From the IMG/VR virus record IMGVR_UViG_3300024054_000052, positions 1 to 26,459 of that record: a stretch of DNA of 26,459 bases; one strand, written 5' to 3'. The DNA comes from a virus. This document shows positions 7,856-26,459 of the stretch, piece after piece; the first letter of the stretch is position 1; each line of letters starts with the position of its first letter. The notes under the pieces are model-generated. The model was given only the letters and a program-made list of their open reading frames with translations. It did not search any database and was not told the DNA's origin. The position numbers and the translations under genes are program-made.

Positions 7856-8224
7856 ATGGGAGACCAGTACACCGCCGGTCGTTATGGCACCCGGCAGATG
7901 CTTTCTGCCTATTTTGACGCTAACAAAACTGCTAATACCGAAGTAGCGGTGCTGCGGTTTTTCACTCCTGTCGTGGTTCAGGAAGTTCAGGTAGGCGTGA
8001 TTTTAGCTGGCACCAGCCATGCTACCCATGCCCTGGATGTCTACAAAGGCACTACGTCTATCGGCGCTGTGCTTGTGGGCACAAACACCAAAGGGTCTGT
8101 CGTGGCGGCTTCGCTGACCGACACCACCTTTGCGGCTACGGATGTTCTGAGCCTCAAAACCACGAACTCGGATGCGACATGCAAGGGCAACATCATGGTC
8201 GATTATGTGGAGCAGTACAGTTAA
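7856..8224 (+). CDS. Decoration-like protein, copy 1 (type A)
   Basis: This is the first of four tandem paralogues. It has 122 residues with a GGAGGG ribosome site just before ATG 7856. The protein is beta-rich and Thr/Ala/Gly-rich: MGDQYTAGRYGTRQ, then RFFTPVVVQEVQVG, YKGTTSIGAVLVGT, SLTDTTFAATDVL and a C-terminal SDATCKGNIMVDY. The copy ends in a type A motif (SDATxKGN) shared with copy 3. Its position directly after the capsid gene fits a head decoration or head-fibre protein. The repeated beta pattern also resembles immunoglobulin-like surface domains, but that is not shown. Confidence 0.8.
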   Translation: MGDQYTAGRYGTRQMLSAYFDANKTANTEVAVLRFFTPVVVQEVQVGVILAGTSHATHALDVYKGTTSIGAVLVGTNTKGSVVAASLTDTTFAATDVLSLKTTNSDATCKGNIMVDYVEQYS

Positions 8225-8232
8225 ACCTCTAA

Positions 8233-8264
8233 GCCGGGGAAGGAAAGAAAGAGCCTTCCCCGGC
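8233..8264 (+). promoter_or_regulatory. Perfect 11-bp hairpin between decoration copies 1 and 2
   Basis: GCCGGGGAAGG (8233-8243) pairs perfectly with CCTTCCCCGGC (8254-8264) around the purine loop AAAGAAAGAG. No T-run follows, so it is not a standard intrinsic terminator. It could protect the upstream capsid/decoration mRNA against 3' exonucleases or partly attenuate transcription into copies 2-4. It fills most of the only sizeable gap (60 nt) inside the array. Confidence 0.65.
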
Positions 8265-8284
8265 AGTTATAACGGAGTAAAAAC

Positions 8285-8656
8285 ATGGGACAATATACCG
8301 ATGGCAGATTTGAAACGCAACTAAGCCGGGATATTGGTATGTTGCACTCGAATCGTACGGCAGCTTCTGAGGTGGCCCGGATCAGATTTTCTACCCAAAC
8401 ATTGGTCAAGGAAGTATCCGCCAGTGTTTTAACTGCGGGCACGGCTACGACTGCCGGTTTCACGGTACTAAAAAATACTTCTAGTATTGGGGCCGTGATT
8501 ACCGGGACTCAGACCGCAGGGTCGGTAGTAATTGCCACCCTTGCCGATACCACCTTTGCATCGACCGACGCCCTGGTGCTAAAAAATATAACCTCAGACC
8601 TCAATATGGACGCCCGAGTTTGGGCGGACTATCAGGAACTTTTTAGCGCCACTTAA
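8285..8656 (+). CDS. Decoration-like protein, copy 2 (type B)
   Basis: This second paralogue has 123 residues starting MGQYTDGRFETQ. It shares the core KNTSSIGAVITGTQTAG and IATLADTTFASTDALVLKN with copies 1, 3 and 4. Its C-terminal motif TSDLNMDARVWADY is matched only in copy 4 (TSDLNLDARAIVDY), which defines type B. Its extreme N-terminus and its C-terminal ELFSAT, however, match copy 3. It lies behind the hairpin at 8233-8264, with an AACGGAG site before ATG 8285. Probable capsid surface protein. Confidence 0.8.
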   Translation: MGQYTDGRFETQLSRDIGMLHSNRTAASEVARIRFSTQTLVKEVSASVLTAGTATTAGFTVLKNTSSIGAVITGTQTAGSVVIATLADTTFASTDALVLKNITSDLNMDARVWADYQELFSAT

Positions 8657-8677
8657 AAAGCACGGAGGATTATCATC

Positions 8678-9049
8678 ATGGGACAATATACTGACGGGCG
8701 ATTTCAAACCCGCCAGAACATCGCCAACAAAATTGACTCGAATCTGGCGGCTACGGGCGTTTGCGCCATTGTCAGGTTTTTCACCCAATCCCTTGTTTAT
8801 GAGGTAGCCATCGGCATCGGCGTTGCCGGGACCGCTGCGGCTACTTCAAAATTTGACATTTACAAAAATACCTCATCCATTGGGGCTGTTGTGTTCGGTA
8901 CAGAAACTGCCGACCAGGTAGTTATCGCAACCTTGGCCGACACCACTTTCGCCGCCAATGACCGGCTTGTGCTAAAAAACAGCGACTCGGATGCTACCTT
9001 CAAGGGCAACCTGAGCGTAGATTACTCCGAACTGTTCTCGGCCACCTAA
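8678..9049 (+). CDS. Decoration-like protein, copy 3 (type A)
   Basis: This third paralogue has 123 residues starting MGQYTDGRFQTR behind CGGAGG. Interior motifs RFFTQSLVYEVAIG and SDATFKGNLSVDY match copy 1 (type A). The start and the ELFSAT end match copy 2. The mosaic pattern suggests gene conversion at the ends after duplication of a two-gene unit. The central KNTSSIGAVVFGTETAD and IATLADTTFAANDRLVLKN are the family signature. Probable head decoration or fibre protein. Confidence 0.8.
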   Translation: MGQYTDGRFQTRQNIANKIDSNLAATGVCAIVRFFTQSLVYEVAIGIGVAGTAAATSKFDIYKNTSSIGAVVFGTETADQVVIATLADTTFAANDRLVLKNSDSDATFKGNLSVDYSELFSAT

Positions 9050-9064
9050 AAGGAGTACTGAATT

Positions 9065-9448
9065 ATGGGAGACCAATTTCACTATCCCTCTGGCCGTCCG
9101 AAACTTCGGCTTCAGCTTGAAACCCCGTTGCTTAACAGCAATAAGGAGGCTGCTTCAACCCTCTGGACTATCAGGTTTAAGACTCCTGGTTATGTCAAGG
9201 GGATTACGGCGGAAATCGCTACGGCGGGGACCGGGGCCACGGCGGGATTTACCATCTTTAAAAATACGACCAGCATCGGGGTTGTCACTTGCGGGGTTAC
9301 TGCTGCGGGAACCTACGTCACCGGCACTATGGCGGAGACCTATTTCTTGACTACCGACAAACTGGTGCTGAAAAACGTCACTTCGGACCTCAACCTTGAC
9401 GCCCGGGCGATTGTTGACTATTACGCCAACCATGAGAGGTTTTCGTGA
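9065..9448 (+). CDS. Decoration-like protein, copy 4 (type B, most diverged)
   Basis: This fourth paralogue has 127 residues, behind AAGGAG. It starts MGDQFHYPSGRPK and has the longest N-terminal variant. The core FKNTTSIGVVTCGVTAAG and the C-terminal TSDLNLDARAIVDYY group it with copy 2 (type B). Its C-terminus NHERFS is unique, and its stop overlaps the GTG start of the next gene. The divergence suggests an older or specialised copy, perhaps at another capsid site. Confidence 0.78.
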   Translation: MGDQFHYPSGRPKLRLQLETPLLNSNKEAASTLWTIRFKTPGYVKGITAEIATAGTGATAGFTIFKNTTSIGVVTCGVTAAGTYVTGTMAETYFLTTDKLVLKNVTSDLNLDARAIVDYYANHERFS

Positions 9449-10653: not shown

Positions 10654-12444
10654 ATGGCCTGGACACGCGAAACCTCATGCGGCAACGAAGCCTCTAAATG
10701 CAGACATCGGGTATTGCCTTTTCTGCGAGGTCTGGGTATTGACCTGGGGTGCGGGACAGACCGCATTCACCATAAGGCTATCGGCATAGACAAAGCTATC
10801 GGGGCCGGTATTTGCCATGATGTGGAAAGGTTGCCGATGTTCAAGGATGCTTCCTTGGATTTCGTCTTTTCCTCGCATTGTCTTGAAGATTTGGGGCCGA
10901 CTGAGGACATTTTAAAAGAATGGTGGCGGGTGTTGAAGGTCGGCGGTAACATGGTTCTCTATCTGCCGCACAAAGACTTGTACCCTAACGTGGGGCAGCC
11001 TGGGGCTAACCCTGCCCACCTACATGATTTTTACCCGGAAGATATATTGAAAATCGTTAAACGTAATTTTGCCGCCAAGTTAATTAGAAATGACGTTCAT
11101 GCAGAAGGGAATGAATACAGTTTTGAAATGATTCTACAAAAACTTCCTGGCGGCCCTCGTTTGGAACGGGATTTGCAGGTGACGCCGGAAAATGCCTGCA
11201 TGATTATTCGATATGGGGCCTTTGGGGATGCAATCCAGGCCACGCCCATAATTCGGCGCATCAAGGAAGAAGGGTATTTTACCGTTGTCCAATGCTCCCA
11301 CCGGGGCGCGCAGGTATTGAAAAACAATCCCCACATTGACCGTTTAGAAGTCCTGGACGAGGGCATGTTATTGCCCCAAGACCTGCCCGGTCATTGGGAG
11401 AAGTTGGCAAAGACATATAAGCGGTTTGTCAACCTGTCAGGCATAGTAGAGCAGGTCTTGCTCAAGATCAAGGGGCAGCCCGGCTATGATTCTCCCGATA
11501 GCCTCCGACACCTGATATGCAACGTCAATTACGGGGATTCCCTGCACATGACCGCGGGGTATCGGGATAATGCCGGGATGACTTTGCCGGAACTGTATTA
11601 CCTTCCCAAAGAAGAAGTCTGGGCGGAAAAGTTTGTCAGAAAGGTTAAACAGGATACCGGGGCTGAATACCTGATTCTCTGGTCCTTGGCCGGATCGGGG
11701 TGGAATAAGAAATACCCTTGGGCAGAATTTGTGCAACGGACCTTTTTGGAAGACTTCACGGATGCGGCGATCATCACCGTAGGAGATGAAAGTTGTAAAA
11801 TCTTGGAATGGGATCATCCGCGCCTGGTGAAAATGTCGGGCAAAACCACCATGCGGCAGTCCTGCCTGTTGACCAGGTATGTTGACTGCGTGGTGGGGCC
11901 GGAAACCGGGGTGCTTAATGCTGCTTCCTGTTGGGATACCCCCAAAGTGTTAATGCTCTCCCATAGCTCCAAAGAAAATCTGTCGAAATACTGGCAGAAT
12001 ACCGTCAATATCACCCCGGAACCGGAGTGCGAGTGCCACCCTTGCCACAAGTTGGTCTACGTTTTGGAGGAATGCCCCCAGAAGCCCATCACTATTGAAA
12101 AGAAAGACGTACTGCGGTTCATCTTCTTTGTTCGGGCAAACTCTGGTTTAGGGATTGATATTGGCCGGGCTGTGACTGCCGAATCTTGGCAGGAGAAGAT
12201 GAAGAAAGTTCCCGAAGGCCCTATAACTATGGAATATACGGGATGTATGGCCTTGACGGAACCCATGAAAATCTTGCAGGCGATGGAGAAATTTTATGAC
12301 CAACGTCAGAAAGAAGCGGACAACGAAAGTGCAGGCGAAGGTAGACAAGCGTCCCCGGAGAGAGAAGAATATCCCGATAGTGGCGCATCCTTACGACCCG
12401 GAGCCGATACCGGCAATGGAGCAATGGGTTGCTCCGCCTCCTGA
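10654..12444 (+). CDS. Methyltransferase-GT9 glycosyltransferase fusion protein
   Basis: The frame encodes 596 residues. Residues about 25-165 form a class I SAM methyltransferase of the Methyltransf_11 type: GIDLGCGTDRIHH (motif I), ERLPMFKDASLDFVFSSH (motif II) and WRVLKVGGNMVLYLPH (motif III). From residue 183, MIIRYGAFGDAIQATPIIRR is the N-terminal signature of GT9 heptosyltransferases, and GPETGVLNAASCWDTPKVLML at 415-435 is their sugar-nucleotide site. GT9 enzymes add heptose or related sugars to LPS and other glycans. The fusion suggests a sugar that is methylated and transferred, perhaps onto a virion protein or the host surface. The last 45 or so residues look out-of-frame-like and overlap the next gene. 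Confidence 0.8.
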   Translation: MAWTRETSCGNEASKCRHRVLPFLRGLGIDLGCGTDRIHHKAIGIDKAIGAGICHDVERLPMFKDASLDFVFSSHCLEDLGPTEDILKEWWRVLKVGGNMVLYLPHKDLYPNVGQPGANPAHLHDFYPEDILKIVKRNFAAKLIRNDVHAEGNEYSFEMILQKLPGGPRLERDLQVTPENACMIIRYGAFGDAIQATPIIRRIKEEGYFTVVQCSHRGAQVLKNNPHIDRLEVLDEGMLLPQDLPGHWEKLAKTYKRFVNLSGIVEQVLLKIKGQPGYDSPDSLRHLICNVNYGDSLHMTAGYRDNAGMTLPELYYLPKEEVWAEKFVRKVKQDTGAEYLILWSLAGSGWNKKYPWAEFVQRTFLEDFTDAAIITVGDESCKILEWDHPRLVKMSGKTTMRQSCLLTRYVDCVVGPETGVLNAASCWDTPKVLMLSHSSKENLSKYWQNTVNITPEPECECHPCHKLVYVLEECPQKPITIEKKDVLRFIFFVRANSGLGIDIGRAVTAESWQEKMKKVPEGPITMEYTGCMALTEPMKILQAMEKFYDQRQKEADNESAGEGRQASPEREEYPDSGASLRPGADTGNGAMGCSAS

Positions 12445-18628: not shown

Positions 18629-18919
18629 ATGGCTAACAATTACCTCTTAGGCAAACTCGATCCCGATACCAGGCGAATTGTAGAGGATATATACGACAAA
18701 ATTAATAGAATAAGGGTTGACAATGGCCAAAAAAGTTCTGCCGAAAGCGGTGAGAAGGCAGACAATAGCAAGGAAAAACCGCAAATAGTTAATAACTTAA
18801 ATCAATTTGACTCTGTTACGGGAAGCGACCAGGTAGATTTAGCGAGTCTTGATAGCACTTTAGACCAACTGCGAATCAATATTAACGCTCTCTCTATAGC
18901 CGTGAGGAAGCTATTATGA
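18629..18919 (+). CDS. Small hypothetical protein, possibly coiled-coil
   Basis: The product has 96 residues starting 2 nt after the previous stop. An N-terminal helix (TRRIVEDIYDKINRIRV), a polar Ser/Glu/Lys linker and a C-terminal hydrophobic-heptad helix (LASLDSTLDQLRININALSI) suggest a short trimerising or adaptor protein. AT-rich composition resembles the gene before it. The stop overlaps the next start (ATGA-type), so the genes are coupled. No family recognised. Confidence 0.6.
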   Translation: MANNYLLGKLDPDTRRIVEDIYDKINRIRVDNGQKSSAESGEKADNSKEKPQIVNNLNQFDSVTGSDQVDLASLDSTLDQLRININALSIAVRKLL

Positions 18920-19407
18920 AAGTGCGCCCCCTGGAATATCGAGACCTCGACTCAGTTCTTGCTTTATTGGAAGACATGGCGCATTATAATGTTATTCATG
19001 GGGGCAAATTCTTTGAACCTGATGTGCAGGCCCGACGCAATGGTTTTATGGAGACATTGGTAAAAATTTTGTCTATCCCGGAGTTTTATAAGGAATCTCT
19101 GTTGCTGGTGGGCGATTATCAGAATCAACCTGCTGCGGTTCTTATGGCGCACGCTATGAACAATTACCCTTATGCTCGGCATAAGAAGGGAATCTATATC
19201 GCCGCCCTCTGGTTTAAGAAAGGTGTCCCACCGGCGGCTGCTGCTGGTATTATGCGTCATGGACTTACTCACTTGCGGCAATTTACCGAAGAACAGCAGG
19301 CTACTACATTTTTTGGGCACACATTCCATGCGGATATGCGGGCCAGGAAGTTGATGCAGAAAATAGGACTTCGGGCATCGTTTATCCGTTATGAAGGGGA
19401 GGTATAG
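18916..19407 (+). CDS. GNAT-like acetyltransferase-fold protein
   Basis: The product has 163 residues starting at ATG 18916, overlapping the previous stop. The opening MKVRPLEYRDLDSVLALLED is the typical first strand and helix of a GNAT fold. It continues with a central beta part (ESLLLVGDYQNQPAAVLMAH, GIYIAALWFKKG) and ends DMRARKLMQKIGLRASFIRYEG, like GNAT beta6-beta7. The pyrophosphate-binding Q/RxxGxG/A loop is weak here (PPAAAAGIMRHG), so acetyl-CoA binding is uncertain. In phage structural operons such proteins occur as virion or host-modifying cargo. The substrate is unknown. Confidence 0.72.
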   Translation: MKVRPLEYRDLDSVLALLEDMAHYNVIHGGKFFEPDVQARRNGFMETLVKILSIPEFYKESLLLVGDYQNQPAAVLMAHAMNNYPYARHKKGIYIAALWFKKGVPPAAAAGIMRHGLTHLRQFTEEQQATTFFGHTFHADMRARKLMQKIGLRASFIRYEGEV

Positions 19408-19410
19408 GCA

Positions 19411-19869
19411 ATGGCAGGCGGCGGTGGACCGCAAAGCAGCGGATCAAGCCAAGGATATTCTCGGCCTCTCTCCGAAAGGGCACATCCGGCGCAATGGGCA
19501 CTATACGGTCCCTTGGCTGCGCAGTTATTTGAGAAGGCTTTCGGGGGAGATCGGGACCGGCAAATTACCGAGACCGGATTACGAACCCAGGCCCTACAAG
19601 GCGGGGCCGGGGCCTCAAGACGACTTACCGGGGTCTTGGCGGGACAGGGAGTAAATGCCAACTCCCCTCTATTTGGTTCTCTCCAGAGAGGACTGCAAGG
19701 CAAGGTAATGGATCAACTGGCCGAGGCCCGCTTGCAGGGGGAAAAAGCCCAGCGAGCTACGCAAGCGGGATGGGGCGGCCTAGCTACAAAACTTATCGGC
19801 GACTGGCCCCCGGCGGAGTCTTGGTCAACAAGCCAGCAGCAAAGTTCCGGTGGCGGGGGAGGTAAATAG
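19411..19869 (+). CDS. Gly/Gln-rich ejection-type protein
   Basis: The product has 152 residues behind GGGGAGG (19396-19402), which is well placed for ATG 19411. An overlapping frame at 19391 lacks this site and is rejected. The N-terminus is Gly/Ser-rich (MAGGGGPQSSGSSQG), the middle is helical (PLAAQLFEKAFGGDRDRQ, LQGKVMDQLAEARLQGEKAQRA) and the C-terminus is again Gly-rich. Small, flexible, helix-forming proteins at this position are commonly ejection proteins of short-tailed phages. I do not recognise the family. Confidence 0.68.
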   Translation: MAGGGGPQSSGSSQGYSRPLSERAHPAQWALYGPLAAQLFEKAFGGDRDRQITETGLRTQALQGGAGASRRLTGVLAGQGVNANSPLFGSLQRGLQGKVMDQLAEARLQGEKAQRATQAGWGGLATKLIGDWPPAESWSTSQQQSSGGGGGK

Positions 19870-19872
19870 CCC

Positions 19873-20208
19873 ATGATGTATACTGACTTGATAGACGCTT
19901 TAAGTCCAAGTGGCTTTGCCATGCCCTCCAGTATGGTTAATCCTCAAGCATTGACTACTCAGGCTGCTATGTTACCGGCTGCCGGGGCTTCCATGCCCGC
20001 CTGGGGAGGTCCGGCGGTTGCGGGAGCAGGACAATTAGCTCAATCCTTAGTAAGCGGAGACCTTTGGGAAAAGCCACTAACCTCTTTACGGAAGGTAGGG
20101 GGGGCGGTAGGGGGATCGGCGGCGGGGGCGGCTTTGGGCAGCGCCGTTGCTCCTGGTCCCGGAACCATGATAGGTGGAGCCTTGGGGTCTATGTTTGGAG
20201 GTAAATAA
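19873..20208 (+). CDS. Glycine-zipper membrane-active protein
   Basis: The product has 111 residues starting at ATG 19873 (or 19876). The C-terminal third (about residues 77-110) is a glycine-zipper-like hydrophobic stretch with GGAVGGSAAGAALGSAVA and IGGALGSMFGGK, which can insert into membranes. The N-terminus is Ala/Pro-rich. This fits a DNA-ejection protein that forms a channel in the host envelope. The neighbours, a Gly-rich protein before it and a helical protein after it, fit an ejection-protein set. Function is inferred from composition. Confidence 0.68.
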   Translation: MMYTDLIDALSPSGFAMPSSMVNPQALTTQAAMLPAAGASMPAWGGPAVAGAGQLAQSLVSGDLWEKPLTSLRKVGGAVGGSAAGAALGSAVAPGPGTMIGGALGSMFGGK

Positions 20209-20210
20209 TC

Positions 20211-21071
20211 ATGGGATGGATAAGTTCTCTGGCCGCCAGCATCGGCGCACCACTAGCCGCGGGTCTGGTGAATCGATTCCTGGTACTGCCCTATCAGGAG
20301 CAGATAGAACGGCAAAAACAGGTAGATAATCCGCTTGCCTTCCGCCGGGGCGTAGTTGATTTAAACAAAAGCATCATGGGGGAATACGGTTCGCCCCAGA
20401 CCCCGGAAGAAGCATACGGCAAATTTCCTTTAATGACCTCATTAGCTGCGGGCATGGAACCGGAAAAATTTGCTCCTTTTGTCGGTCAGTACGGTATGGG
20501 ACGAAGATTGATGCAGATGACTCCCGCAGAAGAGGCAGCGGAAAGGGCCAAGGCCGGATTGTACAGCGGTCAGGAGGCTTATCAGCGTGCCCATGCTAAA
20601 GCTACGGAAATGTTGGCTCCGGCCCAGGTTCAAGAACACTTGTCTACATCGTTGTTGAAAGGAGCAATGGCGGATAAAACTGCGGTCGAGACCAGTGAAC
20701 TTGCGAAGTCTATGGCTGCCAACATTGACCTGAAGAAAGCCCAAGCGGAACTCGGCAGGGCGAATGCGGAAGCACTAAAGACGGGAGATAAATCGGGATT
20801 AACCAAGGCTTTGCTGGAGTCTTATAAAGACATTTACCCCCAAATTAAAATGGGCTATGCGGCGGCTAATAAAGGTGGATGGTTCACTACCGGGATGTCT
20901 CAAGGGGAAATAGACAGCCGGGCGCATCAGGATACTATCAATATGTTGATGGGTGTAGTAGGGTCGGCGTTTCCGGCCCGGCAAACGGGGCAGGCTCCAA
21001 CGTCCCGGCAAACAGCCCCCGTTACCGGCAACAGGCCCCCTTGGTTAGACGCCAGACCCCCGGCAAGGTAA
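20211..21071 (+). CDS. Helical ejection-type internal virion protein
   Basis: The product has 286 residues, starting right after the glycine-zipper gene. The N-terminus is hydrophobic (ISSLAASIGAPLAAGLVNRF), the long middle is charged and helical (EEAAERAKAGLYSGQEAYQRA, DLKKAQAELGRANAEALK), and the C-terminus is Pro/Arg/Thr-rich and disordered. This layout fits an internal virion protein placed between a membrane-active protein and the giant polyvalent protein. I do not recognise a named family. Confidence 0.68.
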   Translation: MGWISSLAASIGAPLAAGLVNRFLVLPYQEQIERQKQVDNPLAFRRGVVDLNKSIMGEYGSPQTPEEAYGKFPLMTSLAAGMEPEKFAPFVGQYGMGRRLMQMTPAEEAAERAKAGLYSGQEAYQRAHAKATEMLAPAQVQEHLSTSLLKGAMADKTAVETSELAKSMAANIDLKKAQAELGRANAEALKTGDKSGLTKALLESYKDIYPQIKMGYAAANKGGWFTTGMSQGEIDSRAHQDTINMLMGVVGSAFPARQTGQAPTSRQTAPVTGNRPPWLDARPPAR

Positions 21072-21077
21072 AGAGAA

Positions 21078-24000
21078 ATGGCTGAAGAGCAGAATCTTCC
21101 TAACTATCTTGAAGAAGCAAGCAACTGGTCTGTGCCAGACCTGCAAGACATGGCAGACCAGATTGCCGATCACTATGGCATAGACAAGGGTATGTTTCGC
21201 GCCCTTATTGGCCATGAATCAAGTTGGAAGGTAGACGCGGCTAATAAGACAAGTTCTGCTCTGGGCTTAGGGCAATTTCTGGATAGCACCAATCGGGATT
21301 ATGATCTCGGACTTCAGACTTATGACCGGGGGCCGGGAGGCAAGATTAATCCCGCAGACGAACGCTTGCACCCCGGCAAAATGATGGACGCCGCGGCCCG
21401 GTTACTCCTTGCCAAAAAGGGAAACACCTGGGCAGAAAGAATAAAGAATTATGGGGAAGGGACAGACGAATATCTTAGCCGGGTAGTCCGTCAGTGGCAG
21501 AAAGACCAGGCCCGGCCTACTGCGGGCTTGCCGGGGGCAATCGCCAAAGGATTACATGAAGGCACCGCCAAGACTGCGGCGGCTATCGCTTCTATTCCTG
21601 CCCGCGGTGCCGGATGGGTAATGGAACAGGCCGGAAAACTCGGCTTACCAGAACCTTCCCCGGAAGAATTGTTAAACGTAAAAGAGTCTATTAAAAGCAT
21701 GGAAGGAGGGATTGAGAGGGCCATCAATCCTACTCCTTATGGCCCCACAAGCCCGCTTAATATTCCTATTTATGGCAAAAGCCAATTTGCCGGTGATTTA
21801 GCTGCTGGCTTAGCTTCCGGTGCCCCGGAGATTGCGGGCCTTATCCTGTCCGGTGCGATGGTGCCTCACATAGCGGCTCCCGCAGCTTTGGCCCGCGCTT
21901 CTTCTTTAGCCGCCCGCCTATTCCCGGCTATGACTCATGGAGCCGGAACCTTCGGCCTCTGGGACATCCTTAAAGGGGAAGGCCCGGAGCGGGCGGCTAT
22001 CGGAGCAGGTATGGGGGCGGCGCTTCCTATAGTTGGTCCTACTTTCGGCAGGTTGGCAAGGGCAGGTTATGGCGGGGCGATTGGCGGGGTAACGGGATTG
22101 GTACAGTCTTTGCTTGAGGGTCGTACCCCCACGGCGGAAGAATTGGGTCATAGTATCGCTACTATGGGCATTTATCATGCTCTGGGGCGCAAGAGGTTGT
22201 CTCCTGAAGAAGCGCTTAAAAAGCAGCAGGAAGCATTCTGGAAGGATGTTAAGATCGACTTGAGCCAATTTGAAACGGTGCCCCAAGGGACGCCGGGCAA
22301 GCCTCCCCAACTGCCGCCGCCCCAACTGGCCTTACCCGCTCCAGATACACTTTATGGAGAAGATTTCACGGCTAGACCAGCAGGGCCTACCCCGCCGCCA
22401 TTTAGAAATGTTTTACCGGGGCCAGTGGCAGGACAGAAATATCTACCCCCTCCGCCGACAGGTACGTATGGCCCTGAGACTGGAGGGGGGCCAGGTTTTG
22501 TCATTCCGACGCAGCGCCCCGAAACTATCCGCCGTCCTTTATGGGAGAGCATGGTCAATACTCCGGTGCCGCCTTCCTATCCTCCAGTTCTGGAAACCAT
22601 CCCCGGCATATCGCCGGGCAAAGCATTAGGATTACGGCCCCAAGATATAGTGGAAAGACTCATGCTCCAGGCTGCGGGTTTGCCGGAGAGTGCAGGATTG
22701 AGGGCGGGGCCAGGATTAGGGGCGCAGCTTCCGGTAAGGATGGGGAAGCAGACGGAGATAGTTAAAGAAATGTCCCCACAAGCCCCTACACCGCCCCAGG
22801 AGGCCCCGGTTCCTCCCGCAAGGGTAATGGGCGGGGTAGTACCGGAACGGGGCGTAGGGGGGGGTGGAGCGGCAGTATTTAATGAGACGACTACTGGCAC
22901 ACCCCATTGGGATAATATACTTAAAAAAGGCGAGGCATCTATTGAACGCATGTCGCCTGATGAATATTTGAACCGAGTTGCGAAATTGCAAGGAATATCC
23001 CTTGAACAGTCTTTAAGAGCAGTCCCGGATAATTTACCTCGCCAATATGCCGAAAGAATGAGGAAAGGAGAAAAAGCACCGCTACCGATTCTTGATGAAG
23101 TTGAAAAAGCCCAGGAGGGCAGAGCCAGGGCATTAGCGGCAAAAGAACTTGGTATTGAAGAAATACCTGTATTGGTAAGAAAAGCAACTCCTGTTGTGAA
23201 GGAACTCACCCTTGAAGCCCGCAACGCCCGCAACGCCTTAGCCAAGTCCCGCGGACTGAACCCGGAGAGCCTGACCTACATCGGCGAGAGCGAGTTGGGG
23301 CATTATTTTAACGTGAAACTCCCGGACGGCGGGGAGACTACGTTGAGTTGGAAGGGGGGAGAGAAACCTTCAGGGGTTGCGAAGAAAGAGGGGAAAGAGC
23401 CTTGGGAGATGACAAAGGAAGAGTTTAGGGACAGTCTTGCTGATAAGAAGATGGCCAATATTCATAATAATGCAATACGTCTAAGGGGTATTGATATAGC
23501 AAGCGAAGCACAGGTTAAATCATATTTCAAAGAATTAAGAAAACTGGCTGATTCTGCTGACGATTTATCAAAACAAGATGCTCATAAATTAATAGACGAA
23601 GCAGAAAACAATTATTATGCAGGCAATCTAAAGCAGGCTATTGTCAAGTCAGAAGAAGCAATGTCACTTGTCCATGACTATTATAAAGAAAATGAATCTC
23701 AAGTTGCATTGGCAGATTTATTGCACTTTGATATTTTAGATAAAGCCATTAACGAAGGAAAGAAAGTGCCCCCTGAAATAGCAGAGGGATGGGGGTTATC
23801 AGCATCTAAATCTAAAGAACCTTGGGAAATGACACGTGAGAAATTAAAAAAGGGGAAAGAAGTTTGGGAGATGACTTTCCCTGAATTTAGAAAAATGATG
23901 TCGCGACCAGAAATGGGGGACCAAAATCCTGAATTATTTAAAGATGGACACCGCTGGCAGGTAGAAGTAGCATTAAAGGAAGGCAAACCCGTCCCCCCCG

Positions 24001-26459
24001 AAGTCCTCGCCGACTACCCCGACCTGGCGGCGAAGTATGAGAAGGGAGAGGAGAAGCCGCCAATTAGCAAGGAGGCAATTCCTACAAAAGAAGAATATGG
24101 AAGGGCAGAATTGGCTAATGCTATTGAACAAACGGAAAAAGAATTAGCCAAAGCTAAAAGGGGGGAATTAACTGTTGGTAAATTTTCTCAATACAAATCT
24201 AAAGCAGATGCGATTAGGAAAATATCTAAATTATTAGAGACATTGAAAAATGATTCCCCAATGCGACACACAGGGAATTACGAAAAAGATATTAGGACTG
24301 GAGAATGGAGGGAATTATACCCCGACCTGGCGGCGAAGTACGGGAAGGCTCCAGATGTTGCAAAAAGTGCAACAGGTGAAGCCGAATACTCCCCCGCCGA
24401 CCTTCAGGCCCAAGCTAAATCTGTCAAAGAGAAAGGCGTTAAGGCAACGGAAGAATTAAAACCCTTAAATCTTAAAGATCAAAAGAAGTTTGCCATAGAC
24501 AAACTTGATGATGCTTTAGCGGGTCCGTTTAAAGACAAAGGTGGTCCTAAAACGATTACCATAGATATTCCCGGAGATGGTGAATTTACGATTCATAATG
24601 AGAAGGAAGTTTTAGAACAAGTCAAAAAGAACTTTGCTAAATTACCGACTACAGAGCCTAAGCCAGTAAACTATGAGGCGCAACCATATAAGGTCCCCAA
24701 GCCATTAGGCACCCGTAATGCTTTAGATAATATCGAAGAATTTGAGTATTATTCCCCGAAATATACGCCAAAGAAAAGTCCTTTAGAAATAAAGGAAGGG
24801 AAAACGACTTGGCAGGACGGTTATTATTCTACAGGAAATCTATTGATCTATATGCCAGAAAAACCTAAAGGCATTGGAGAGGAACATTTAAAATGGCAAT
24901 CAAGGGAAAAGAGTTTAAAGGATTATTTAACCGACCAATTTGCCCAACAAGCAACTATGCAAGCAGATATAGAAGGAGAATTTAAACCAGTTAATTCCAA
25001 AATATCGGTTGTTGTTATTAAATCTGGTGATACTCGTAAAGCTATATCAGCGAAATTTGTTGACAGCATTATTGCTGAACACCCCAGGGCAAAACCTTAT
25101 TTATCTGAAAATCAAGAACATCCGGTAGTTTTTAGAGTGAATGATGCCCCCGTTGCTGCTGTATCTGGATATAGATTAGATGAGAAAGGATGGGAACGGT
25201 ATAATGAATTAAGGACTGAAGCGGCACATCGCACTTTGCCGGGGGTGGAGTATAAGGGGAAATTGTTTTCCGTCCGCTCTCCCGCCCCCGTCTTCTACTC
25301 TAAACTGGAAAAGACCGTCCGGGAAAGTCTGCCGAACCGGGGCACCGGGGCGCAGATTGCCGAAGTCTTGGAGTCCTGGGCCAAGAAGGGGCAGTTCAAG
25401 GCGGACGAACTTAAGTGGAGCGGGGTGATCCCGTGGCTGAAAGAACAAACCGGCCCCGTGACCAAAGAACAGGTCTTGGAGAAGTTGCGGGAAGGGCGGG
25501 TAGAGGTGAGGGAGGTTGAGAGGCAAGACAAGTCTCGACTTCCTGATTGGGAATATTATTTTGATGAATGGTTAGCAGATAATTATACGCCTGAGCAGGC
25601 AGAAGGAAGGAGAAATGAATTATACGACAAATGGAGAAAAGAGACGGGACAACCTAAATTCCAATCCTTCATGAAGTTGCCGCCGGGGGGTGAGAATTAT
25701 AGGGAAGTGCTGTTGACATGGCCCAAAGAAAAAGAATTGCCAAGGGTTGATGTTAAAGACCCTGATGCCTGGAAAAAATCAAATGTTGTAAGATGGTTGC
25801 CGCCAGGCAGAACTGAAACGCGTACACAGGAATGGTCAAGGGATATAGACGGGAAAGAATATCGTATAACTTATTACCCCCACACAGATAAATATGTATT
25901 GAATGGTGGGAAAGGGAAGATTCAAAATGCCCATGCGGATAGTCTTGAAATTGCTATGTATTGGGCGGAACAGGGGAAAACTACTCATGTAGGATATTTT
26001 ACAGATACTTCTCTATTCCGCGTCCCTTCCTCTCACGCCTATGGCGATACCGCTGCGGACGTAAACCGCTTCACTCATGTCATCGCGGATGACCGGGTAA
26101 TTGGTGGCAAGAAGTATTTGACGGTGTGGGAGATGCAGAGTGATTGGGCGGCGGAGGGGAGGAGGAAGGGGTATCAAGGACAGGTTCCTAAAATAGGAGA
26201 AAAATTTTTAGGCAGGCAACAGGAACTTGAACGAATTGCAGATATTGAAGGACAGCCTGTGGGCATTATTCGCGTTAAGGATTCTCTTAGAAATGAATTT
26301 AACTTCCCCATATCTGAACTCAAAGAAGGCGTTCCCCCCTTCCCCTTCTCCAAGAACTGGCATGAAGTAGCCCTAAAGCGGGTTATCCGCTACGCTGCGG
26401 AACAGGGATATGATGGTGTGGCGATTGCCTCTGGGGATATGGTAAAGGAGAGGTATGAT
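21078..26459 (+). CDS. Giant polyvalent virion protein with N-terminal SLT-like domain (partial)
   Basis: One frame is open from ATG 21078 to the window end: 1794 codons with no stop, so the gene is incomplete at the C-terminus. Residues about 30-150 resemble a lytic transglycosylase: GHESSW with Glu47, then SALGLGQFLDSTNRDY. A Gly/Ala-rich hydrophobic stretch (about 235-350) may span membrane. A Pro-rich linker follows. Around 620-695, KAPLPILDEVEKAQEGRARALAAKELG and EEIPVLV look like a ParB-type module with an altered GRHR (here GRAR). EPWEMT-like motifs at 775, 914 and 929, EGKPVPPEVLADYPDL, and a distal WEMQSDWAAEGRRKGY...FSKNWHEVALKRVIRYAAEQGYDGVA are typical of polyvalent proteins delivered with phage DNA. 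It lies after the ejection genes. Confidence 0.82.
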   Translation, partial: MAEEQNLPNYLEEASNWSVPDLQDMADQIADHYGIDKGMFRALIGHESSWKVDAANKTSSALGLGQFLDSTNRDYDLGLQTYDRGPGGKINPADERLHPGKMMDAAARLLLAKKGNTWAERIKNYGEGTDEYLSRVVRQWQKDQARPTAGLPGAIAKGLHEGTAKTAAAIASIPARGAGWVMEQAGKLGLPEPSPEELLNVKESIKSMEGGIERAINPTPYGPTSPLNIPIYGKSQFAGDLAAGLASGAPEIAGLILSGAMVPHIAAPAALARASSLAARLFPAMTHGAGTFGLWDILKGEGPERAAIGAGMGAALPIVGPTFGRLARAGYGGAIGGVTGLVQSLLEGRTPTAEELGHSIATMGIYHALGRKRLSPEEALKKQQEAFWKDVKIDLSQFETVPQGTPGKPPQLPPPQLALPAPDTLYGEDFTARPAGPTPPPFRNVLPGPVAGQKYLPPPPTGTYGPETGGGPGFVIPTQRPETIRRPLWESMVNTPVPPSYPPVLETIPGISPGKALGLRPQDIVERLMLQAAGLPESAGLRAGPGLGAQLPVRMGKQTEIVKEMSPQAPTPPQEAPVPPARVMGGVVPERGVGGGGAAVFNETTTGTPHWDNILKKGEASIERMSPDEYLNRVAKLQGISLEQSLRAVPDNLPRQYAERMRKGEKAPLPILDEVEKAQEGRARALAAKELGIEEIPVLVRKATPVVKELTLEARNARNALAKSRGLNPESLTYIGESELGHYFNVKLPDGGETTLSWKGGEKPSGVAKKEGKEPWEMTKEEFRDSLADKKMANIHNNAIRLRGIDIASEAQVKSYFKELRKLADSADDLSKQDAHKLIDEAENNYYAGNLKQAIVKSEEAMSLVHDYYKENESQVALADLLHFDILDKAINEGKKVPPEIAEGWGLSASKSKEPWEMTREKLKKGKEVWEMTFPEFRKMMSRPEMGDQNPELFKDGHRWQVEVALKEGKPVPPEVLADYPDLAAKYEKGEEKPPISKEAIPTKEEYGRAELANAIEQTEKELAKAKRGELTVGKFSQYKSKADAIRKISKLLETLKNDSPMRHTGNYEKDIRTGEWRELYPDLAAKYGKAPDVAKSATGEAEYSPADLQAQAKSVKEKGVKATEELKPLNLKDQKKFAIDKLDDALAGPFKDKGGPKTITIDIPGDGEFTIHNEKEVLEQVKKNFAKLPTTEPKPVNYEAQPYKVPKPLGTRNALDNIEEFEYYSPKYTPKKSPLEIKEGKTTWQDGYYSTGNLLIYMPEKPKGIGEEHLKWQSREKSLKDYLTDQFAQQATMQADIEGEFKPVNSKISVVVIKSGDTRKAISAKFVDSIIAEHPRAKPYLSENQEHPVVFRVNDAPVAAVSGYRLDEKGWERYNELRTEAAHRTLPGVEYKGKLFSVRSPAPVFYSKLEKTVRESLPNRGTGAQIAEVLESWAKKGQFKADELKWSGVIPWLKEQTGPVTKEQVLEKLREGRVEVREVERQDKSRLPDWEYYFDEWLADNYTPEQAEGRRNELYDKWRKETGQPKFQSFMKLPPGGENYREVLLTWPKEKELPRVDVKDPDAWKKSNVVRWLPPGRTETRTQEWSRDIDGKEYRITYYPHTDKYVLNGGKGKIQNAHADSLEIAMYWAEQGKTTHVGYFTDTSLFRVPSSHAYGDTAADVNRFTHVIADDRVIGGKKYLTVWEMQSDWAAEGRRKGYQGQVPKIGEKFLGRQQELERIADIEGQPVGIIRVKDSLRNEFNFPISELKEGVPPFPFSKNWHEVALKRVIRYAAEQGYDGVAIASGDMVKERYD
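24015..24340 (+). repeat. 23-bp direct repeat flanking an AT-rich in-frame segment
   Basis: An identical 23-bp GC-rich sequence occurs at 24015-24037 and 24318-24340, encoding YPDLAAKY both times. The offset is 303 bp, exactly 101 codons, so the frame is kept. Between the copies the DNA is clearly AT-rich and encodes a Lys/Glu-rich helix (EKELAKAKRGELTVGK). The simplest reading is insertion or module duplication inside the polyvalent gene with retained repeat ends. Confidence 0.75.

Follow-up and report, generated by a model that had tools for sequence, protein, structure and literature searches.

A cysteine-free giant phage protein with a lytic transglycosylase domain and predicted ParB- and GNAT-like folds, a probable ejection protein of the polyvalent class

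The window, i.e., the whole stretch of DNA analysed here, is the complete record of a 26,459-base virus fragment, in which one strand encodes, in order, the small and large terminase, the portal, the capsid, tail-region genes, small ORFs and a giant ORF. The major capsid protein showed 38% identity to that of Vibrio phage D65 and 50% identity to that of an IMG/VR contig, and no DNA similarity of the window to named phages was found. Behind the capsid gene lie four tandem ORFs of 122-127 aa (7856-9448), which look like paralogues from their similar starts (MGDQYTAGRYGTRQ, MGQYTDGRFETQ, MGQYTDGRFQTR, MGDQFHYPSGRP). Between structural genes, a 596-aa ORF with 18 cysteines (10654-12444) gave weak methyltransferase matches at residues 61-110. 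The giant (21078..26459, + strand) is encoded among the late virion genes, with terminase, portal, capsid and tail genes upstream on the same strand. Its ATG at 21078 is preceded by a purine-rich stretch (AAAGAGAA), and the frame stays open for 1,794 codons up to the final base of the contig, confirming the uninterrupted frame of at least 1,794 residues described in the initial annotation. When viral_contigs was searched with 25 bases from close to the right end, requiring an exact match, no overlapping contig was found. Among the named polyvalent Pfam families, SLT alone matched the visible 1,794 residues; no LPD, ART or metallopeptidase family and no zincin HExxH motif was found there, and Pfam, PHROG and NCBIfam gave no match to an RNA polymerase domain. 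Sequence searches of the PDB with the giant protein and with the profile of its C-terminal module returned no match.

The N-terminus carries an SLT lytic transglycosylase domain (aa 26-129; 21153..21464, + strand), identified by Pfam (PF01464, E 6e-7, over the curated cut-off) and by alignment with T7 gp16 and four other giants. The catalytic Glu47 (nt 21216-21218) sits in ESS, followed by GLGQ; it aligned with the conserved ES glutamate of the T7 gp16 SLT domain, and the GxxQ motif was kept across T7 gp16 and the four giants. The window giant and T7 gp16 also have in common a P-x-D-[DE]-R-L-x-P stretch with an Ala-rich helix behind it. Judged by its sequence, the N-terminus, noted earlier as SLT-like, is an intact SLT lytic transglycosylase. 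Its best PHROG match was an internal virion protein with endolysin domain, and the phrog_342 match was confined to the SLT part (positions 15-112 of 1235). Peptide-pattern searches with the N-terminal 400 residues found no relatives. Further on, a Gly/Ala-rich, weakly hydrophobic stretch (aa 239-298; 21792..21971, + strand) was identified by hydropathy, its mean Kyte-Doolittle value being 0.89 for the best 60 residues. Since the best 19-residue windows reached only 1.3-1.6, it contains no clear transmembrane helix; the membrane-like region of the initial annotation thus stands as a weakly hydrophobic, Gly/Ala-rich stretch for which membrane contact is possible. A 'GRxPT' motif behind the hydrophobic stretch, considered as a candidate feature of polyvalent proteins, was dropped (5 of 134 relatives, mostly unconvincing). 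A Pro-rich linker with 44 Pro in 200 residues occupies aa 401-600 (22278..22877, + strand).

Residues ~609-706 (22902..23195, + strand) are predicted to take a ParB/sulfiredoxin fold. The AF2 model of the window sequence with ten relatives reached a pLDDT of 90.3, and the ParB reading holds as a predicted fold because its best PDB matches were ParB-N, Noc, sulfiredoxin and Osa (Foldseek probability 0.97 for ParB-N; VIA Z 6.7 for sulfiredoxin). In sequence comparisons, residues 600-700 matched a stand-alone protein encoded by a Bacillus velezensis plasmid (E 7e-11) as well as a small Octadecabacter DB virus 2 protein; further relatives were found at 12 more loci by pattern scan and as 17 copies by profile. 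The PF18763 (ddrB-like ParB) profile gave no match in the window giant. In the Octadecabacter DB virus 2 protein, an ART-like stretch, judged by eye, follows the ParB-type part. The GxxR motif of the window reads G681-R-A-R684 (nt 23118-23129) and departs from the GRHR of its relatives (GRNR in two of them), so that the description of an altered ParB-type element was accurate. The active-site Arg, R684, was kept in all aligned relatives, and nucleotide binding may be weakened by the window's His-to-Ala change.

A WEMT ... YPDL repeat region follows (aa 773-986; 23394..24035, + strand), delimited by motif positions and alignment. The WEMT repeats, already noted from the sequence, lie at 776, 916 and 930, with VPPE at 897; VPPEVLADYPDL occupies 972-983, the second half of the repeat, GKPVPPEVLADYPDL, ends at 983, and a lone YPDL stands at 1081. 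WEMT and YPDL halves with differing inserts between them also occurred in the giants of four other loci (L002, L004, L040 and L057). The L040 and L057 giants combine these halves with the C-terminal module, and L057 has an N-terminal SLT domain too; with all three elements in its giant, it is the closest architecture found. In the stretch between the repeats and the module (aa 990-1400; 24045..25277, + strand), phmmer searches of segments gave at most one weak match.

The C-terminal module consists of two parts. The first (aa 1402-1480; 25281..25517, + strand; FYS...EL.WSG..WL...VTKEQVL) was recognised by matches to relatives, and the second (aa 1534-1794; 25677..26459, + strand; PGGENYRE ... 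EMQSDW ... WHEVALKRVIRYAAEQGYDGVAIASG), GNAT-like as modelled on the relative L097, ends before its last strands at the contig edge. Residues 1402-1794 matched an LPD23 protein of 4,400 residues from a Pseudomonas aeruginosa plasmid (pairwise E 4e-19, far past chance). Further matches were to a Dolichospermum phage protein carrying four ART-PolyVal domains, to a spring-water phage and to Pelagibacter phage HTVC028P. The claim of C-terminal polyvalent modules is supported by these matches to polyvalent-type proteins; the GNAT-like nature of the module had gone unrecognised. No Pfam family covers the module. It was found in at least 206 IMG/VR loci with one peptide pattern and in at least 165 genome contigs of many phyla with two patterns, and, at the sensitivity used, in 3 of 50,697 named phage records and 6 of 72,556 plasmids. 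Downstream of the module, LPD38 was present in 12 of 43 proteins and LPD39 in 3 of 43; upstream, relatives carried LPD22, InPase, SLT, ART-PolyVal, ddrB-ParB, PBECR1 and others. An N-terminal SLT domain and the module recurred in a single chain at L024, L057, L069 and L082. In a Variovorax plasmid protein (L199, 7677-9560), a HEAWH zincin-like motif comes after the module, and the protein is encoded directly before DotD/TraH, T4SS and IcmT genes of conjugative type IV secretion.

Across the 57 aligned copies, the window kept 13 of the 13 invariant, mostly polar module residues (E1543, P1549, H1653, N1663, H1667, R1673, E1685, Q1687, S1688, D1689, G1698, P1756 and G1786). It has Ala where 54 of the 57 copies have Gln and Ile where 56 have Arg; because of these two substitutions and the Ala in the ParB-like GxxR motif, the window giant may be partly degenerate. 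Of the 63 relatives whose end is complete, some four fifths run on for ~600 to 1,700 residues beyond the module, mostly near 1,000, and the remaining fifth mostly end within ~150 residues of it. Because most complete-ended relatives extend that far, the window giant is most likely missing both the final part of its GNAT-like domain and some 1,000 residues beyond it.

Since the window copy is truncated, the fold of the module was modelled on the relative L097, using the alignment of 57 copies. The AF2 model (pLDDT 84.7, pTM 0.80) predicts that the module folds like a GNAT acetyltransferase. Acetyltransferases ranked first in the Foldseek search of the PDB, with an E value of only 0.05 and low TM. 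VIA Z scores were 10.3 for the C-domain of isocitrate lyase 2 (ICL2), 9.2 for GCN5, 9.2 for NatD, and 8.9 and 8.4 for the toxins GmvT and TacT, respectively; most rows scored 7 to 9, and the structural aligner warns that Z below 8 may be chance. The acetyl-CoA motif Q/RxxGxG/A was not exactly present; [RK]xxG[YF] occurs after beta-4, and the last Gly/Ala is not conserved. The C-domain of ICL2 is GNAT-like and binds acetyl-CoA, yet it is not known to be an acetyltransferase, and activity should therefore be read from the module's fold with caution.

The giant contained 0 Cys in 1,794 residues, a total absence that the initial annotation had overlooked. Five Cys-free ORFs precede it on the + strand: a 96-aa ORF at the start of the putative ejection cassette (18629..18919), a stand-alone GNAT-like ORF of 163 aa (18916..19407; phrog_1249 acetyltransferase, E 2e-4), a Gly/Ser-rich ORF of 152 aa (19411..19869), a Gly/Ala-rich ORF of 111 aa (19873..20208) and, directly before the giant, a 286-aa ORF (20211..21071). 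From its Cys count and the gene order in relatives, the 286-aa product is likely a second ejection protein; peptide-pattern searches with it found no relatives. Together, the giant and the five preceding ORFs (18629-26459) had 0 Cys in 2,602 residues, compared with 52 in 4,504 in the earlier late genes (Fisher P 5e-11; as Cys counts take related proteins as independent, P values are descriptive only). These six consecutive Cys-free genes may delimit the whole ejection cassette. Similarly, Cys made up 0.025% of 80 module-bearing IMG/VR proteins and was absent altogether from 57 of them, compared with 0.755% in the other + strand ORFs of at least 300 aa at the same loci. With genome contigs included, 157 module-bearing proteins contained 145 Cys in 454,947 residues. 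At many module loci, one or two genes before the giant were Cys-free and the next gene further upstream was not. In the cultured Pelagibacter phage HTVC028P (L008, 7692-15736), four consecutive genes of 156, 565, 954 and 985 aa are Cys-free, with the module in the third, which offers a cultured model.

Known ejection proteins showed the same pattern: zero Cys was found in T7 gp15 and gp16, P22 gp7, gp20 and gp16, and N4 vRNAP, gp51 and gp52, and one Cys in T7 gp14. By contrast, plasmid homologues of the module contained 18 Cys in 4,420 residues and 5 in 627 (L199, Variovorax), an ordinary or half-ordinary content given 0.7% in their neighbours, a contrast drawn from two plasmid lineages. The absence of Cys from the giant, its cassette and known ejection proteins but not from the plasmid copies points to virion ejection. 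P1 DarB, a phage polyvalent protein, has 9 Cys in 2,255 residues; therefore, not every phage polyvalent protein excludes Cys.

Taken together, the ORF encodes, with good probability, the N-terminal portion of a giant ejection (internal virion) protein of the polyvalent class from a short-tailed-type phage. The class assignment draws on unnamed modules in common with polyvalent-type proteins, on a gene position behind the tail genes and on Cys exclusion; since no named Pfam polyvalent family other than SLT matched, the polyvalent link claimed in the initial annotation runs through the unnamed modules. One large chain joins unrelated domains, namely SLT, the predicted ParB/Srx fold and the predicted GNAT-like module, so the earlier statement of many effectors holds only at the level of predicted folds.

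The competing explanations concern both the protein as a whole and its parts. The giant could be a purely structural, T7 gp16-like ejection protein in which SLT and body form a transient conduit and the ParB- and GNAT-like parts are decayed or structural. The PHROG match of the N-terminus to an internal virion protein, the His-to-Ala change, the loss of two near-invariant module residues and the non-canonical acetyl-CoA motif are in line with such a role. However, the phrog_342 match covers the SLT part only, the window module retains its full set of invariant residues, and a conduit does not explain a module that also occurs in unrelated architectures and on plasmids, with one copy beside conjugative T4SS genes; we consider this explanation rather unlikely. 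Far less probable still is a late lysis enzyme, a giant endolysin that is not ejected, as would be suggested by the SLT domain and by phrog_7348, which is named endolysin and matches 54 of the 57 module copies and the window weakly. We rejected this reading of the PHROG name because the match lies over the GNAT-like module (positions 1806-2075 of 2564), away from any cell-wall domain; the name misleads annotation of module giants. The position of the gene behind tail genes with Cys-free neighbours, as in the ejection cassettes of T7, P22 and N4, also argues against an endolysin.

The GNAT likeness of the module might reflect a mere common alpha/beta arrangement, consistent with the Foldseek E value, the low TM and the Z range that straddles the aligner's warning. 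Against this, nearly all of the 50 structural matches listed were acetyltransferase or GNAT-fold chains, the best aligned 131 residues at 3.1 A, and the order of strands and helices in the L097 model fits GNAT, which leaves chance resemblance with a small share of the probability. Cys exclusion, in turn, might have another cause, for example if proteins inside virions, or very large proteins, were generally poor in Cys, and some capsid or scaffold proteins are Cys-free too (T7 gp9, P22 gp8 and the N4 coat protein). However, other large virion proteins contain Cys (N4 gp65, 11 in 1,382; T7 gp12, 5 in 794; the window tail protein, 12 in 940), as do the plasmid copies of the module, and the comparison with other + strand ORFs of at least 300 aa at the same loci (0.755% versus 0.025%) points the same way, making another cause improbable.

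The analysis establishes the open frame, an SLT domain that retains its glutamate, predicted folds, module conservation and Cys exclusion, whereas packaging, ejection, unfolding, enzyme activities and targets are inferred as follows. The giant would be synthesised late and enter the head together with the Cys-free products of the genes immediately upstream, and it is most likely delivered with the DNA. On infection, it would exit via the tail, at least partly unfolded; the SLT domain would cut peptidoglycan locally, and the domains behind it would then reach the cytoplasm. Without Cys, the protein could form no disulfides while crossing the tail and the oxidising periplasm. Inside the host, the C-terminal module may be a GNAT acyltransferase with a host target, or a derivative of one; the ParB/Srx-fold domain, probably weakened by the His-to-Ala change, may act on or sense nucleotides or DNA.

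Two of the new results are the most useful, namely the GNAT fold predicted for a module that is widespread yet unnamed, and the phage-versus-plasmid Cys contrast. The module occurs in hundreds of uncultivated phages and in almost no cultured phage (3 of 50,697 records); it is therefore an unstudied tool of early infection. Cys absence in N4-like virion RNA polymerase, with an explanation by the tail or periplasm, is in print (PMC3715699, PMC3915230), and within the literature found this was the only protein for which it was previously known. The main text of the paper on polyvalent proteins (PMC5512222) makes no mention of cysteine, and the part of the literature covered contained no paper extending Cys exclusion to polyvalent proteins or whole cassettes. 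We tentatively propose, as an idea that may well prove too broad, that near-complete Cys exclusion is a general sequence-only mark of proteins ejected by short-tailed phages, separating ejected polyvalent giants from conjugation-borne homologues and delimiting whole cassettes, and that the module represents a new and widespread family of acetyltransferase-type effectors in uncultivated phages. If the exclusion holds, ejected effectors would be recognisable in raw sequence without homology, and why conjugation tolerates cysteine and ejection does not becomes a question.

Compared with known systems, the window giant resembles the phage-type polyvalent proteins (Iyer et al. 2017, PMC5512222) in being a giant multidomain protein that joins a cell-wall enzyme to unrelated enzyme-like domains in a late-gene context. 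LPD38, InPase, ddrB-ParB and lysozyme are among the domains described in that paper, and the C-terminal module of the window giant recurs in giants with LPD38, LPD22, InPase, ART-PolyVal and ddrB-ParB. Unlike those proteins, the visible part of the window giant has no named LPD, ART or metallopeptidase domain, and its main C-terminal module is unnamed. Polyvalent proteins include GNATs, with two RimI-like families (PMC5512222), so an acetyltransferase-type fold inside such proteins is shared with the window module; in contrast to the RimI-like GNATs, the module is missed by every Pfam model, has large insertions and has no canonical acetyl-CoA motif. The ParB/Srx-fold domain likewise differs from ddrB-like ParB (PF18763), whose profile misses the window and whose counterpart here has GRAR in place of the GRHR of its own relatives, but it shares the fold and the conserved Arg. 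No similarity to T7 gp16 was detectable past the SLT domain, where ParB/Srx-like, WEMT and GNAT-like modules take the place of the gp16 body in the window giant; nevertheless, both have an N-terminal SLT domain with the same catalytic Glu, are encoded by the last ejection gene and contain zero Cys. The N4 virion RNA polymerase differs in its polymerase domain, none being found in the visible part of the window giant, but both proteins are giant and Cys-free, and N4 vRNAP is injected with the DNA.
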